From: Geodermatophilus marinus
Lineage (GTDB): Bacteria > Actinomycetota > Actinomycetes > Mycobacteriales > Geodermatophilaceae
Direction: 5' to 3'
Length of the DNA stretch: 64,000 nucleotides
Assembly (NCBI RefSeq): GCF_003428645.1
Contig: NZ_QVQH01000004.1
Location: 124,001 to 188,000 of the forward strand
Shown here: positions 15,069 to 61,998 of the stretch, in pieces
Layout of the letters: the number at the start of each line of letters is the position of its first letter
Numbering within the stretch: position 1 is the first letter of the stretch
Translations under genes and position numbers: made by a program
The notes under the pieces: generated by a model
Seen by the model: only the letters and a program-made list of their open reading frames with translations
Database searches by the model: none
Told to the model about the DNA's origin: nothing

Positions 15069-16168
15069 CCGCCGCCCCGCCGCCGGGCCCTGCGGCCACC
15101 ACCCCACCGCCGGGCCCTGCGGCCACCACCCCACCGCCGGGCCCCGCGGCCACCACCCCACCGCCGGGCCCCGCGGCCACCACCCCGCCCGAGGACCGCG
15201 GGCTGGCCCGCGACGGGGTGCGGCTGCTGGTCGCCCGCCCGGACCGGCTGACCCCCGTCACCTTCCGCGACCTGCCCGCCCACCTCGCGCCCGGTGACCT
15301 GGTGGTCGTCAACACCTCCGCCACGCTGCCCGCGCGGCTGGACGTGCGGAGGGCCGACGGCACCCGGGCACCGCTGCACGTCTCGACCCGGCTGGACGAC
15401 GGCGACTGGGTGGTCGAGCTGCGGCGTCCCGGCAACGACGGCCCCGACCGCGGCGTCGAGCCCGGCACCGTGCTGGACCTCCCGGGCGGCGTCCGGCTGC
15501 GGCTGCTGGCCGGCTTCCCCGATCCGGCCCGGCCGACCCGGCTGTGGCGGGCGCGCCCCGAGCCGGCCGTCGCGCTACCCGGCTACCTGCACCGGCACGG
15601 CTCCCCGGTGCGCTACGGGTACCTGAGCCGGCCGGTCCCGCTGGCCGCGGCGCAGAACGTCTACGCCACCGAGCCGGGCAGCGCGGAGAACGCCAGCGCG
15701 GGGCGACCGTTCACCGACCGCGTGCTGGTCCGGCTGATGGCCCGCGGCGTGCCGGTCGTGCCCGTCACCCTGCACGCCGGGGTCTCCAGTCCCGAGCTGC
15801 ACGAGCCCCCGGCGCCGGAGCGGTTCCGCGTGCCGGAGGTCACCGCCCGGCTGGTGCGGGCCACGCGGGAGGCCGGCGGGCGGGTCGTGGCCGTCGGCAC
15901 CACGGTCACCCGGGCGCTGGAGTCCGCCACCGGCGAGGACGGCGTCCTCCGCGCCGCGACCGGCTGGACCGACCTCGTGCTCGGCCCCGAGCGCCCCGCA
16001 CGGGTGGTCACCGGCCTGGTCACCGGCCTGCACGCCCCCGACGCCAGCCACCTGCTGCTCCTGCAGGCGGTCGCGGGCCGGGACCTGGTCGAGCGGGCCT
16101 ACGCCGCGGTCTCCGGGGGCGGCTGGCTGTGGCACGAGTACGGCGACACCATGCTCTTCCTGCCCTGA
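15065..16168 (+). CDS. queA: S-adenosylmethionine:tRNA ribosyltransferase-isomerase family protein (QueA-like)
   Basis: A 367-residue QueA-family protein. QueA adds the epoxycyclopentane of queuosine to tRNA; this actinobacterial branch is divergent and its substrate is uncertain. Motifs: FRDLPAHLAPGDLVVVNTSATLPARL, GYLHRHGSPVRYGYL, TEPGSAENASAGRPFT, VTLHAGVSSPE, VGTTVTRALES and HLLLLQAV, covering the QueA fold. Residues 5-40 are four copies of the nine-residue unit PPPGPAATT from a 27-base tandem repeat, probably a disordered extension. The GTG overlaps the SDR stop. No tgt or queuosine synthesis gene lies nearby. Confidence 0.82.
   Translation: MTAAPPPGPAATTPPPGPAATTPPPGPAATTPPPGPAATTPPEDRGLARDGVRLLVARPDRLTPVTFRDLPAHLAPGDLVVVNTSATLPARLDVRRADGTRAPLHVSTRLDDGDWVVELRRPGNDGPDRGVEPGTVLDLPGGVRLRLLAGFPDPARPTRLWRARPEPAVALPGYLHRHGSPVRYGYLSRPVPLAAAQNVYATEPGSAENASAGRPFTDRVLVRLMARGVPVVPVTLHAGVSSPELHEPPAPERFRVPEVTARLVRATREAGGRVVAVGTTVTRALESATGEDGVLRAATGWTDLVLGPERPARVVTGLVTGLHAPDASHLLLLQAVAGRDLVERAYAAVSGGGWLWHEYGDTMLFLP
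15077..15184 (+). repeat. Coding minisatellite, four 27-base units
   Basis: Four in-frame copies of a 27-base unit encode PPPGPAATT each. Units 1 and 2 end their GP codons with CCT, units 3 and 4 with CCC; otherwise they are identical, indicating recent slippage duplication. Copy number can change by whole units without breaking the frame of the QueA-like gene. Confidence 0.95.
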
Positions 16169-57687: not shown

Positions 57688-58677
57688 ATGCCTGCCGTGA
57701 CCGTCGAGGACACCACCGCCCTGCCCCGGGTCCCGCTGCCCGCACCCGGGACGGTGCGCCGCCGGACCCGCTCGGTGACCACCGCCCCCTCCGGGTTCGA
57801 GGGAGAGGGCTTCCCGGTCCGCCGCGCGTTCGCCGGCGTCGACCTGCGCGACCTGGACCCGTTCATCCACATGGACCAGATGGGCGAGGTCGAGTACGCC
57901 CCGGGCGAGCCCAAGGGCACCTCGTGGCACCCGCACCGCGGCTTCGAGACCGTCACCTACATCATCGACGGCACCTTCGAGCACGCCGACTCGCACGGCG
58001 GCGGCGGGACGATCAGCAACGGCGACACCCAGTGGATGACCGCCGGTGGCGGCGTCCTGCACATCGAGCGGCCGCCGGAGCACCTGGTGGTCAGCGGCGG
58101 CCTGTTCCACGGCCTGCAGCTGTGGGTGAACCTCCCCCGGGCGCAGAAGTGGGTCGAGCCGCGCTACCAGGACCTGCGCGCGAACAGCGCGGCGCTGCTG
58201 GCCAGCCAGGACGCCGGCGCCCTGCTGCGGGTGATCGCCGGCGAGGTCGGCGGGCACACCGGCCCCGGGTCCACCTACACCCCGATGGCGATGGTGCACG
58301 CGACCGTCTCCCCCGGCGCGACCCTCGACCTGCCCTGGCGGCCGGACTTCAACGCGCTGGTCTACGTGCTCTCCGGCGCCGGCTCGGTCGGCATCGACGG
58401 CGCCCCGGTGCGCACCGGTCAGCTCGCCGTCCTGGGCCCCGGCGACACGGTGACCGTCCGCGGCGCGGTGCACCAGGAGTCGCGCACGCCGGCCCTGGAC
58501 GTCGTCGTCCTCGGCGGGCGCCCGATCCGCGAGCCGATCGCCATGTACGGCCCGTTCGTGATGAACACCCGGCAGGAGGTCGTCGAGGCCTTCGAGGACT
58601 TCCAGGCCGGGCGGCTGGGCAGCATTCCGGCCCAGCGCGTCCCGCACGCCGCCGTCCGGGGCGAGAGCGGGCAGTGA
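57688..58677 (+). CDS. Pirin family protein (first copy)
   Basis: A 329-residue bicupin pirin. The metal-binding cupin shows WHPHRGFETVTYIIDGTFEHAD and GDTQWMTAGGGVLHIE, with the His/Glu metal ligands in HPHRGFE and HIE. The C-terminal cupin (about 215-310) follows. Bacterial pirins often have quercetinase or redox-linked regulatory activity. ATG 57688 has AAAGGAGG five bases upstream. A second pirin lies two genes downstream. Confidence 0.92.
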   Translation: MPAVTVEDTTALPRVPLPAPGTVRRRTRSVTTAPSGFEGEGFPVRRAFAGVDLRDLDPFIHMDQMGEVEYAPGEPKGTSWHPHRGFETVTYIIDGTFEHADSHGGGGTISNGDTQWMTAGGGVLHIERPPEHLVVSGGLFHGLQLWVNLPRAQKWVEPRYQDLRANSAALLASQDAGALLRVIAGEVGGHTGPGSTYTPMAMVHATVSPGATLDLPWRPDFNALVYVLSGAGSVGIDGAPVRTGQLAVLGPGDTVTVRGAVHQESRTPALDVVVLGGRPIREPIAMYGPFVMNTRQEVVEAFEDFQAGRLGSIPAQRVPHAAVRGESGQ

Positions 58678-58749: not shown

Positions 58750-59661
58750 GTGGCCGTCTTCCCCCCGATCCCGCTCGAGGACTGGGCCGACACCAAGGAG
58801 ACGCTGCACCGCTTCCTGCAGGTCGTCGGCAAGGTGCGGCTGGCGCACGGCCCGCGCCGCAACCACTGGTGGCACGTGCCGTTCCACCTGACCGGGCGCG
58901 GGCTGACCACCCGGCCGATGGGCCTGGACCCGGTGTTCAGCATCGACCTCGACCTGGTCGACCACCGGCTGGAGGTCACCGTCGCCGACGGGCGGCGGGC
59001 CTCCTTCGCCCTCCCCGGCCTCTCCGTGGCGGGCTTCTACCGGCGGCTGCTGGCCACCCTGGACGGCCTGGGCCTGCCGGCGACCGTCGACCGGCCGGTG
59101 CCCTTCGACCTGGCCGACGCCACCCCGTTCACCGAGGACGAGCAGCACGCCTCCTACGACCGGGAGATGGTGACCCGCTACTGGGTCGTCCTCGGCCAGG
59201 TCGCCCAGGTGCTCGAGGAGTTCGCCGGGCGCAGCTACGCCAAGACCAGCCCGGTGCACCACTTCTGGCACACGTTCGACGTGGCGGTCACCCGGTTCTC
59301 CGACCGCCGGGTCGAGCAGCCCGACGAGGTGGACCCGGTCACCCGGGAGGCCTACTCCCACGAGGTGATCAGCGCCGGGTTCTGGTTCGGCGACGACCGC
59401 GTCCCCGAGCCCGCCTTCTACTCCTACACCGCACCGGAGCCGCCGGGGCTGACCGACGAGCCGCTGCGCCCGGACGCCGCCCGGTGGGTCGAGAGCCGGG
59501 GCGGGCACCTCGCGCTGCTGCCCTACGCCGCCGTGCGCACCGCACCCGACCCGCGGGCCGCCGTGCTCGACTTCCTGGAGAGCGCCTACGCCGCCGGCGC
59601 GCGGCGGGCCGGCTGGGACCTCGACGCGCTGCGCTGCCCCACCGCCCCCGAGCCCGGCTGA
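58750..59661 (+). CDS. DUF5996 family protein
   Basis: A 303-residue protein with the DUF5996 features: PLEDWADTKETLHRFLQVVGKVRL, RNHWWHVPFHLTGRGLTT, HHFWHTFDVAVTRFS and SHEVISAGFWFGD. Several His/Trp pairs suggest a binding site, but no reaction is known. GTG 58750 follows GAGGAG by six bases. It lies between two pirin genes on one strand, probably one operon. Confidence 0.85.
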   Translation: MAVFPPIPLEDWADTKETLHRFLQVVGKVRLAHGPRRNHWWHVPFHLTGRGLTTRPMGLDPVFSIDLDLVDHRLEVTVADGRRASFALPGLSVAGFYRRLLATLDGLGLPATVDRPVPFDLADATPFTEDEQHASYDREMVTRYWVVLGQVAQVLEEFAGRSYAKTSPVHHFWHTFDVAVTRFSDRRVEQPDEVDPVTREAYSHEVISAGFWFGDDRVPEPAFYSYTAPEPPGLTDEPLRPDAARWVESRGGHLALLPYAAVRTAPDPRAAVLDFLESAYAAGARRAGWDLDALRCPTAPEPG

Positions 59662-59704
59662 ACCGCCCGGCCCGCGCCCGCCGTCCCTCCCGAGGAGGAC
59701 CCCG

Positions 59705-60670
59705 ATGAGCAACCTGGACCGCCGGCCGGCCGCCCGCGAGCTGGGCGGGCTGGCCGGGACCGCACCCGGACCGGCGCTGGACCTCCTGCCGGGCAAGGAG
59801 GTGATGCTCGGGGAGAGCACCCGGGTCCGCCGGATGCTGCCGACGCTGGGCCGCCGGCTGGTCGGCGCCTGGGCCTTCGTCGACCACTACGGCCCGGACG
59901 ACGTCGCGACGGCGCCCGGCATGCAGGTGCCGCCGCACCCGCACACCGGGCTGCAGACGGTCTCCTGGCTGCTGGAGGGCGAGGTCCACCACCGGGACTC
60001 CCTCGGCAGCGACGTCGTGGTGCGGCCCGGCGAGCTGGCGCTGATGACCGCCGGGCACGGCATCGCCCACTCCGAGCACTCCCCGGTCCCGCACCCGCGG
60101 ATGCTGCACGGCGCCCAGCTGTGGGTCGCCCTGCCCGACGCCAGCCGGGAGACCTCCCCGGCCTTCGAGCACCACACCGGCCTGCCGGGGTTCGACTCCG
60201 ACGGGCTGGCCGCCACGGTGCTCATGGGTTCGCTCGGTGGCGCGACCTCACCGGGGACGGCGCACACCCCGCTGGTCGGCGCGGACCTCACCCTGGCCGC
60301 CGGCGCCGACGTCGAGATCCCGCTGGAGCCCGGCTTCGAGCACGCCGTGCTGGCCGCCACGGGCGGGGCGGACGTCGCCGGGGCGCCGGTCGCGCGCGGC
60401 GCGATGCTCTACCTGGGCACCGGCCGGCGTTCGGTGCGGCTGCGGGCCGGGGCACCGGCGCGGCTGCTGCTGCTGGGCGGGGAGCCGTTCGACGAGCGGA
60501 TCGTGATGTGGTGGAACTTCGTCGGCCGCACCGGTGCCGAGATCGCCGGGTACGCCGAGCAGTGGAACGACCGGGACGCGCGGTTCGGCGAGGTCCCGGG
60601 CTCGGACGAGCGGCTGGCGGCGCCCCCGCTGCCCCCGGTGCCGCTCAAGGCCCGCGGGAGGGAACGCTGA
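59705..60670 (+). CDS. Pirin family protein (second copy)
   Basis: A 321-residue bicupin pirin, distinct from the first copy: MQVPPHPHTGLQTVSWLLEGEVHHRDSLG, TAGHGIAHSEHSP and QLWVALP. The metal site has HPHTGLQ, where the usual Glu is Gln, and HSEHS. ATG 59705 follows GAGGAGG. Its last codons (AGG GAA CGC TGA) are the source of the tandem repeat that links it to the PPOX gene. Confidence 0.9.
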   Translation: MSNLDRRPAARELGGLAGTAPGPALDLLPGKEVMLGESTRVRRMLPTLGRRLVGAWAFVDHYGPDDVATAPGMQVPPHPHTGLQTVSWLLEGEVHHRDSLGSDVVVRPGELALMTAGHGIAHSEHSPVPHPRMLHGAQLWVALPDASRETSPAFEHHTGLPGFDSDGLAATVLMGSLGGATSPGTAHTPLVGADLTLAAGADVEIPLEPGFEHAVLAATGGADVAGAPVARGAMLYLGTGRRSVRLRAGAPARLLLLGGEPFDERIVMWWNFVGRTGAEIAGYAEQWNDRDARFGEVPGSDERLAAPPLPPVPLKARGRER

Positions 60671-60725
60671 TGGGCAGGGCACGCTGATGGGCAGGGAACG
60701 CTGATGGGCAGGGCACGCTGATGGA
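60665..60725 (+). repeat. Tandem 17-base repeat forming a ladder of three five-codon mini-ORFs
   Basis: The unit CGCTGATGGGCAGGGCA starts at 60665, 60682 (ending AA) and 60699, with a partial fourth at 60716. Each unit holds TGATG, a stop overlapping a start by one base. The pirin TGA (60668) overlaps ATG 60670, which opens MGRAR-stop; its TGA overlaps ATG 60687 (MGRER-stop), then ATG 60704 (MGRAR-stop), whose TGA overlaps ATG 60721 of the PPOX gene. The units look like copies of the pirin gene's last codons. Confidence 0.93.
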
Positions 60726-61146
60726 CATCGATCGCGCGCTGGGCTTCCTGGCCGAGCACCGCTGGGCCGTGCTGGCCACCGTGAAGGGGGACGGCCGGCC
60801 GCAGTTGTCCAACGTGGGCTACGCCCTCGACCGCGAGCAGGGGCTCGTGCGGGTGTCGGTGACCGCCGACCGCGCCAAGACCCGCAACCTCGAGCGGGAC
60901 CCGCGGGTGACGCTGCACGTCTCCTCGGCCGACTTCTGGTCGTGGGTGGCGGTGGAGGGCACCGCGGAGCTCACCCCGGTCGCCGCCGACCCGCACGACG
61001 CCACCGCGGACGAGCTCGTCGCCTACTACCGCGGCATCTCCGGCGAGCACGAGGACTGGGAGGAGTACCGGGCGGCCATGGTCGCCGACCGGCGGCTCGT
61101 CGTCCGGTTCCGGCCGGAGCACGCCTACGGGCAGCTGGGCTCCTAG
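60721..61146 (+). CDS. PPOX-class flavin/F420-dependent oxidoreductase
   Basis: A 141-residue split-barrel protein: LGFLAEHRWAVLATVKGDGRPQLSNVGYALD, RVSVTADRAKTRNLERDPRVTLHV and VEGTAELTP. These are the features of the PPOX-class F420-dependent family common in actinobacteria, which reduce biliverdin-like or other substrates. Translation probably depends on ribosomes arriving through the mini-ORF ladder; each ladder step has AGGG as its only weak ribosome site. Confidence 0.88.
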   Translation: MDIDRALGFLAEHRWAVLATVKGDGRPQLSNVGYALDREQGLVRVSVTADRAKTRNLERDPRVTLHVSSADFWSWVAVEGTAELTPVAADPHDATADELVAYYRGISGEHEDWEEYRAAMVADRRLVVRFRPEHAYGQLGS

Positions 61147-61176
61147 GCCGGCGGCTCCGGCCGAGGCTGCCCCGTC

Positions 61177-61211
61177 CCCGGGCCGGCGCGCCCCGTCCGC
61201 GCCGGCCCGGG
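61177..61211. terminator. Bidirectional hairpin, 14-bp perfect stem
   Basis: CCCGGGCCGGCGCG (61177-61190) and CGCGCCGGCCCGGG (61198-61211) are perfect inverse arms with a seven-base loop. It lies between the convergent PPOX and VOC genes. It differs in sequence from the dispersed terminator family. Confidence 0.75.
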
Positions 61212-61218
61212 CCGGTGC

Positions 61219-61998
61219 TCAGCCGCCCGCGTTCGGGCCCATGACCGTGAACGGCGCGCCCCACGGGTCCTCGACGACCGCGAAGCGCCCGAACGGGGTG
61301 TCCGTCGCCGGGGTGGTGACCTTGCCGCCGCGGGCCTCGACCGTGGCGACGGCCTGGTCGGTGTCGGCGACCGCGAAGCAGACCAGCCAGCCCTTGGGCA
61401 CACCCGGCTGCGCCCCGCCGAGCCCGCCGAGCGGGTTCCCCCCGGCGGCGAAGGTGGTGTAGTCCATCCCCTCCTCGCCGCCCTGCTCCGGGGGCAGCTC
61501 GTCGAAGCTGTAGCCGAACACCTCGCCGTAGAACCGGCGCGCGCCGGCGGGGTCGTCGACCATCAGCTCGTTCCAGGCCAGCGAGCCGGGCTCGTTGTAG
61601 ACCCGGACGCCGGTGTGCTCGCCGGACTGCCACAGGCCGAAGGCGTGGCCCTGGGGGTCGGCCGCCACGACCATCGTGCCCATCGGGCCGACCTCCATCG
61701 GCTCCACGACCACCGCGCCGCCGGCCTCGCGGATGCGGGCGGCGGTGGCCGCGGCGTCGTCGGTGGCGAGGTAGGTCGTCCAGCTCGGGGACGCGGTGGG
61801 GTCCATCAGCGGGCCCAGGCCCGCCGCCGGCCGACCGTCGCGGGTGGCGTTGAGGTAGCCGCCGTACTCGGCCTCCCCGCCGGTGTACTCCCAGCCCAGC
61901 AGGGCGGCGTAGAAGTCGCGGGCGGCGTCGACGTCGGACGTGCCGTAGTCGACCCAGCACGGGGTCCCGGCCGGCCACGCGGTGTCTCGGGTGGGCAT
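61219..61998 (-). CDS. VOC (glyoxalase/bleomycin resistance) family protein, two-domain
   Basis: A 259-residue protein with two VOC domains: WVDYGTSDVDAARDFYAALLGWEYTG (1) and WNELMVDDPAGARRFYGEVFGYSFDEL (2), each ending with a metal-type Glu/His strand (FGLWQ; FAVVEDPWGAPFTVM). The layout matches the CFP30B-like hydroxylase family of actinobacteria. No substrate known. ATG 61998 follows GAGGAGGAGA. Confidence 0.88.
   Translation of the reverse strand: MPTRDTAWPAGTPCWVDYGTSDVDAARDFYAALLGWEYTGGEAEYGGYLNATRDGRPAAGLGPLMDPTASPSWTTYLATDDAAATAARIREAGGAVVVEPMEVGPMGTMVVAADPQGHAFGLWQSGEHTGVRVYNEPGSLAWNELMVDDPAGARRFYGEVFGYSFDELPPEQGGEEGMDYTTFAAGGNPLGGLGGAQPGVPKGWLVCFAVADTDQAVATVEARGGKVTTPATDTPFGRFAVVEDPWGAPFTVMGPNAGG

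Follow-up and report, generated by a model that had tools for sequence, protein, structure and literature searches.

In a 64,000-nucleotide stretch of the Geodermatophilus marinus genome (NCBI RefSeq assembly GCF_003428645.1, contig NZ_QVQH01000004.1, positions 124,001 to 188,000, forward strand; referred to below as the window), a pirin-family gene is connected to the PPOX-class oxidoreductase gene behind it by a ladder of four stop/start overlaps. As judged from the sequences compared here, this ladder is a lineage-specific tandem duplication of a stop/start junction that was already present. We give an even chance to a wider proposal, in which the 17-nucleotide (nt) duplication relays ribosomes by repeated termination-reinitiation (TeRe) and its chain-preserving length is kept by selection.

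Structure of the ladder

The motif TGATG is found at 60668, 60685, 60702, and 60719 in the pirin/PPOX gap, at a spacing of exactly 17 nt. Each of the corresponding ATGs (60670, 60687, 60704, and 60721) begins on the last base of the preceding stop codon; the fourth is the PPOX start, and the three mini-open reading frames (mini-ORFs) in between overlap both of their neighbors by 1 nt. A preliminary description of this DNA had reported these four ATGs with their TGATG overlaps, as well as the peptides MGRAR, MGRER, and MGRAR, all of which we find as described. The features are as follows.

59705..60670, + strand: pirin-family gene, 321 aa, TGA stop at 60668-60670 (Pfam Pirin, E=1e-28; Pirin_C, E=5.8e-22)
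60656..60662, + strand: strong Shine-Dalgarno (SD)-like GGGAGGG stretch, which sits before mini-ORF 1 and no longer before PPOX
60659..60724, + strand: 17-nt-unit tandem array (AGGGMACGCTGATGGGC), 3.9 copies, 93% matches (Tandem Repeats Finder)
60670..60687, + strand: mini-ORF 1, MGRAR*, five codons
60687..60704, + strand: mini-ORF 2, MGRER*, five codons
60704..60721, + strand: mini-ORF 3, MGRAR*, five codons
60721..61146, + strand: PPOX-class F420-dependent oxidoreductase gene, 141 aa (Pfam PF01243, E=4.1e-16)

The last of these belongs to the TIGR03618 family (E=1.3e-42, over the family cutoff) and is not a protoporphyrinogen oxidase gene; its start lies 50 nt downstream of the end of pirin. 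At a period of 34 nt, Tandem Repeats Finder returns 1.9 copies that are 100% identical, and one position (A/C) differs among the 17-nt units. Since the 34-nt copies are identical, the sequence suggests that a 17-nt duplication diverged at this one position before a second duplication copied the two units together. The window contains two instances of three TGATG motifs spaced 17 nt apart, both inside the ladder, and 100 dinucleotide shuffles contained none; likewise, all 33 positions in the window with a tandem 17-mer (at most one mismatch) fall at 60659-60691, in the ladder array, and the three matches of the 27-nt ladder pattern in the genome are all at the pirin/PPOX locus.

A single overlap in related genomes

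Genomes were sampled at one per species, and the PPOX gene was found in all 26 genomes of the genus. The pirin-PPOX boundary is a GTGA overlap in 10 of these, a single TGATG in one (L021, genome G023; GCAGGGTGCGCTGATGGAC), and the ladder in one, the window genome (G000). In three genomes, the pirin frame ends 81 to 145 nt upstream of the aligned first PPOX residue; in six, pirin ends more than 1.1 kb from PPOX, and in five there is no pirin gene in the fetched stretch. The preliminary description saw in the array a duplication of the original stop/start junction, and the single overlap in 11 congeners, next to a ladder in 1 of 26 genomes, bears this out. Given that single overlap, pirin and PPOX were probably already coupled before the ladder arose, and it is into this overlap that the ladder would have been inserted.

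Length arithmetic and a proposed ribosome relay

When a duplication of length L spans the overlap, the new ATG reads into the stop codon of the next overlap only if L = 3k-1. With L = 3k, the added ATGs are in frame and PPOX simply becomes longer; with L = 3k+1, ribosomes that reinitiate at the first ATG pass the PPOX start out of frame. The ladder-forming share of random lengths is one-third. A 17-nt unit is of the 3k-1 type, and the earlier claim that every added unit keeps the chain intact is arithmetically correct.

We propose that a 17-nt stretch carrying the single pirin/PPOX overlap was duplicated in tandem and that a ribosome terminating at pirin would restart immediately, four times in series, to reach PPOX via the three 5-codon ORFs. 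Since the unit is of length 3k-1, each copy's start leads to the next copy's stop, which would permit stepwise passage to the PPOX start. Selection may retain 3k-1 units because other lengths would misframe reinitiating ribosomes over the PPOX start or alter the PPOX N terminus. The ladder would thereby turn a bare 50-nt gap into four zero-distance steps. In Escherichia coli reporters, coupling is reported to drop by 40 to 80% at +14 nt and to be nearly abolished at +38 nt, and the final 15 nt of the upstream gene are reported to suffice (PMC10666635); with such a loss over distance, a bare 50-nt gap would hamper coupling.

If each step had efficiency e, the relayed output would scale as e to the fourth power, versus e for a single junction. 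Mini-ORF 1 now has the best SD-like stretch in front of it (-10.8 kcal/mol), PPOX a weaker one (-6.9 kcal/mol), so that both routes, relay and independent initiation, predict an output no higher than that of a single junction, and PPOX output probably lies somewhat below that level. That ribosomes actually use the chain is something that we infer. The ladder is probably close to neutral, while its frame would be maintained by selection, and the mini-peptides themselves are probably meaningless; a function for these peptides is unlikely because they differ between ladders (see below) and because the ladder is absent in congeners.

Similar ladders at other gene junctions

In the family, 4 of 112 genomes contain three TGATG motifs at 17-nt spacing, in every case at a sense-strand gene junction and with unrelated sequences. 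In all four, the upstream frame ends at the first stop and the downstream ORF begins at the last ATG. At the control spacings, 16 nt (matches in two genomes) and 18 nt (three genomes), none of the matches in these 112 genomes was at a junction, as judged from frames and codon-position GC, and a Pfam search of the control loci L308, L309, and L310 gave no match. Locus L308 (genome G016) is an 8-nt repeat, TGATGCCC, with two-codon stop-start steps, in which no gene junction was recognized.

At L153, a glutamine synthetase gene is followed by the ladder and an abhydrolase gene, whose start is reproduced in the units (MPETR*, MPERS*, and then MPETF...). The downstream start is copied at L155 as well, with MLRWL* twice and then MLRWR..., between an aminotransferase class IV gene and a gene for FAD synthetase/riboflavin kinase; the Pfam assignment of the upstream gene rules out a truB-ribF pair. 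At L156, the ladder stands before a DUF1801 gene, and its three units (MGGVF*/MGGVS*/MGGVS*) are similar to the final part of a small ORF that lies upstream and has no Pfam match. Congeners again carry simpler junctions. In the genus of L153 (G027), the downstream gene was found at E<=1e-40 in 9 of 23 genomes: four congeners with 83 to 88% protein identity have one TGATG at the ladder site (in L725, the stop of the upstream frame comes 9 nt sooner), and the remaining four (46 to 47% identity) show a different arrangement. In the genus of L156 (G091), the gene is present in 14 of 23 genomes, with one TGATG in L734 and GTGA in L732 and L733; no ladder was found among the 13 other genomes with the gene.

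A scan of genome contigs for four copies at 17 nt returned at least 119 stretches, parsed into 125 arrays, and 12 of the 125, among the matches listed, are flanked on each side by an open frame of 60 codons or more. Nine arrays were picked from the listed matches and run on Pfam, and three of them had matches on both sides. In a Mycobacterium sp. metagenome-assembled genome (MAG), four MNDEA-type mini-ORFs lie between a solute-binding protein family 3 gene and a PknG-like kinase gene (L064:6788-6857, minus strand); three units separate a zinc dehydrogenase gene from one for a metallo-beta-lactamase fold protein at L147, and phosphoribosyltransferase and class-I glutamine amidotransferase genes in a Bacillota MAG (L067:5176-5228). 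Two-sided support is weaker at L051, where three units lie between HisG and a cold-shock-like gene (under the cutoff). Pfam matches were one-sided at L035, L151, L061, and L042, and weakly so at L113. The first of these, in Curtobacterium sp. ZW137 (L035:3132-3235, minus strand), has six units (MGGLY/MGGLC) before a flavin amine oxidase gene; its upstream frame has 543 codons, the last 260 aa of which gave no Pfam match. Since these nine arrays were sought at 17 nt only, they have no bearing on length bias. Unit number at other junctions ranges from 2 to 6.

Two variants are recorded here for their form. At L113:1783-1835 (minus strand), in a Burkholderiaceae MAG, 17-nt units at a junction form a ladder in which gaps take the place of stop/start overlaps; the first two mini-ORFs are MN*, with a stop-to-start gap of 8 nt. 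In the actinobacterial family f20 (e.g., genomes G199, G233, G335, and G344), many short TGATG tandem repeats were seen by eye among the matches listed.

Lengths of junction duplications in bacteria

When duplications at bacterial gene junctions with Pfam matches on both sides were collected, with the window excluded, all seven were of length 3k-1 (P=0.00097 under equal length chances): 14 nt at L161 and L362; 17 nt at L176, L153, and L155; 20 nt at L235; and 32 nt at L236. The set pools frame-neutral screens, namely, a class-wide screen for periods 14 to 20 (matches in 259 of 394 genomes), a screen for an SD plus TGATG occurring twice at periods 14 to 34 (5 of 396 genomes), and the 16-, 17-, and 18-nt comparison in the family. 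The class-wide sample comprised 55 regions, with equal-period rows chosen by eye among the matches listed, plus 30 earlier loci. It yielded, again among the matches listed, 65 arrays with at least 70% identity: 2 at 8 nt, 6 at 14, 18 at 15, 4 at 16, 8 at 17, 23 at 18, 4 at 19, and none at 20. Of the 65, 18 lie between two open frames that each span 50 codons or more (13 of length 3k, 4 of 3k-1, and 1 of 3k+1); when all 18 were run on Pfam, two-sided matches were obtained for 3 (L161, L362, and L176), all of length 3k-1. Once these three verified junctions are set aside, the class-wide arrays at periods 14 to 20 comprise 11 of length 3k-1 versus 8 of 3k+1, so that no strong mutational bias is seen.

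Loci with a downstream Pfam match only were left out of the seven: L156, L237, L238, and L239, all 3k-1 (for L237, the upstream side was assessed by frame and codon-position GC), and L167, L341, and L297, all 18 nt and in frame. Further candidates were rejected. The 18-nt repeat at L336 lies inside a phosphoglucomutase-like gene; the 19-nt repeat at L350 comes after an aminotransferase gene but leads into a frame of five codons; and SD-plus-TGATG matches at 6-nt spacing (8 of 355 genomes) were judged to be in-frame coding repeats from the matched letters (GAG GNN NNN NTG ATG) alone. A three-copy AGG-plus-TGATG screen matched 2 of 345 genomes, the window genome and G198 (L297).

Given the small numbers, and given that both the two-sided Pfam rule for inclusion and the split between bacteria and viruses were chosen as the analysis went on, not beforehand, we treat the 3k-1 bias in bacterial junction duplications as suggestive.

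Initiation signals at the junction

SD-like stretches were scored by their duplex energy with an assumed anti-SD tail. In the 20 nt before each ATG, the duplex energy is -10.8 kcal/mol at 60670 and -6.9 at each of the three later ATGs; in background windows (n=572), 1.9% reach -10.8 and 16.1% reach -6.9, and the PPOX SD-like signal is therefore weak. In the 11 single-junction relatives, the energy before PPOX ranges from -6.2 to -10.8, a range that includes the -6.9 of the ladder genome. The pirin gene beside the ladder has a strong SD-like stretch before its own start (-11.6 kcal/mol). Two hallmarks of TeRe are thus found here: the stop/start codon overlap (ATGA/GTGA/TGATG), as four TGATG in series and as a single overlap in the 11 congeners, and an SD-like motif that precedes the start within the upstream ORF, for mini-ORF 1 (-10.8) and for the other ATGs (-6.9). 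A scan of 59500 to 61400, which is blind to other promoter types, revealed no sigma-70-like promoter and no terminator.

According to the preliminary description, a ribosome leaving pirin would translate the three tiny peptides before reaching PPOX. The chain exists as such, but the route need not be a forced one: a modest SD-like stretch is kept before every ATG, which makes independent initiation at PPOX possible.

Alternative explanations

Several observations weigh against a selected relay. PPOX has a usable SD-like stretch of its own. Studies covered by a review report coupling across distances of +25 to +50 nt or longer (PMC12548453), so that a relay may not be needed. With the one-sided loci included, the bacterial count is 11 chain, 3 in-frame, and 0 breaking, the three in-frame cases being the 18-nt arrays L167, L341, and L297, and the absence of breaking lengths from the seven bacterial cases alone is weak evidence (P=0.07). 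Viral contigs, in which four scans returned at least 406 stretches at at least 400 distinct loci, gave, among the matches listed, seven junction duplications whose units are 75% or more identical, of which four were in frame, two chain, and one breaking. These seven loci derive from eight rows, with the near-identical, breaking L489 and L536 taken as one element, and they rest on ORF length; of L206, L231, and L193, which were run on Pfam, L231 (in frame, 21 nt) alone had matches on both sides. Phages by themselves show no bias (P=0.74), and the pooled value for bacteria and phages (n=14, P=0.026) is weaker than that for bacteria alone. A plausible explanation for the missing bias is that phage genes carry their own strong SDs and rely on coupling to a lesser degree. 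Viral scans for four copies at 17 nt (17 stretches) and 16 nt (38, many of them 8-nt repeats) revealed no clear gene junctions.

An alternative is neutral slippage, in which the duplication arose by chance, PPOX is started independently from the SD-like stretch carried by every copy, and the 3k-1 length is a matter of luck. The energy before PPOX within the range of the single-junction relatives, the frame-indifferent phage duplications listed, the confinement of the ladder to 1 of 26 genus genomes, and the fact that TGATG repeats are not rare, with only 12 of the 125 listed arrays having long frames on both sides, are all consistent with it. Luck is a less comfortable account of the seven chain-preserving, Pfam-verified bacterial duplications out of seven, and of four junctions at 17 nt versus none at the 16- and 18-nt controls in 112 genomes; we regard neutral slippage as a serious possibility, if a somewhat doubtful one.

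The idea of a repeat-number rheostat, in which slippage often changes the number of units and each unit tunes the PPOX-to-pirin ratio through its reinitiation efficiency, appears improbable to us. The two identical 34-nt halves do suggest a recent expansion, chain logic predicts a graded fall, and other junctions in other genomes have 2 to 6 units, but there is no sign that the pirin/PPOX ratio matters, and in 11 of the 26 genus genomes the fetched stretch contains no pirin gene that ends less than 1.1 kb before PPOX. Control of PPOX by a structural RNA or DNA element, a hairpin or a G-quadruplex formed from the GGGCAGGG blocks, is very improbable: each unit does hold two G3 tracts, and loose quadruplex motifs start in just 14 of 640 100-nt bins on the + strand, but the RNA from 60640 to 60760 folds no better than shuffles (z 0.36) and the other ladders have unrelated sequences. 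An assembly or sequencing artifact is scarcely credible, since, even with a single assembly of the species, the 66-bp array lies inside a 304-kb contig, one position varies among its units, and similar arrays are present in other, independent assemblies.

Relation to known systems

The preliminary description knew of no named element of this kind. This holds for the short local ladder, of which we found no description in the open-licence literature searched, partly by title and abstract; it does not hold for the principle, for which the ORF of the mycobacterial interspersed repetitive units (MIRUs) is, in the literature searched, the closest published precedent. MIRUs carry a small ORF joined to the neighboring gene by a stop/start overlap, as each mini-ORF is here. 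Those at the senX3-regX3 junction are 77 and 53 bp long, both also 3k-1, and MIRU lengths of about 46 to 101 bp set these elements apart from a 17-nt unit. MIRUs overlap at a spacing of -4 and are interspersed and apparently mobile, according to a review (PMC12548453), whereas the ladder uses a 1-nt overlap and is a private local duplication at one locus in G000. In its working, the ladder resembles an array of tiny MIRUs, yet it is not a MIRU, being not interspersed and of another size.

Contingency loci with variable-number tandem repeats (VNTRs) are tandem repeats whose copy number can change expression (phase variation), and the copy number of the ladder could likewise affect expression. 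Unlike in VNTR loci, there is no on/off frameshift, as both genes are in frame after each added 17-nt unit. The ladder shares with ordinary TeRe at ATGA/TGATG overlaps the same -1 overlap, here at four steps, and the SD-like stretch within the upstream ORF (PMC6728339, PMC10666635); ordinary TeRe involves one overlap and two real genes, whereas the ladder interposes three 5-codon ORFs. Short upstream ORFs in natural and engineered leaders are a further parallel, in that a tiny ORF perhaps serves solely to hand on the ribosome (PMC12548453); the ladder differs in that three such ORFs follow one another within an operon-like gene pair and would receive their ribosomes from a full-length gene. 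Both serial restarts after tiny ORFs and the strictness of the overlap for coupling are contested in these sources (PMC10666635, PMC12548453).

Ladders amount to natural experiments in which unit length and unit number vary in a constant sequence context, and should a larger survey confirm the length bias, this would be genomic evidence of ribosomes passing through such chains. That ladders form a recurrent, independently arising class of bacterial intercistronic elements, filtered for 3k-1 and with the number of steps setting the ratio of two genes as an evolvable, frame-safe attenuator, strikes us as conceivable but unlikely.

Neighboring genes and other repeats

On its own strand, the ladder pirin is preceded by a DUF5996 gene and, beyond that, two genes upstream of the ladder pirin, by a second pirin-family gene (57700-58674). 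Downstream of PPOX, the opposite strand carries a glyoxalase-family gene and a response regulator gene. Elsewhere in the window, positions 15075-15186 hold a 27-nt tandem repeat (4.1 copies, 97% matches), the period of which is a multiple of three and which possibly lies within coding sequence.
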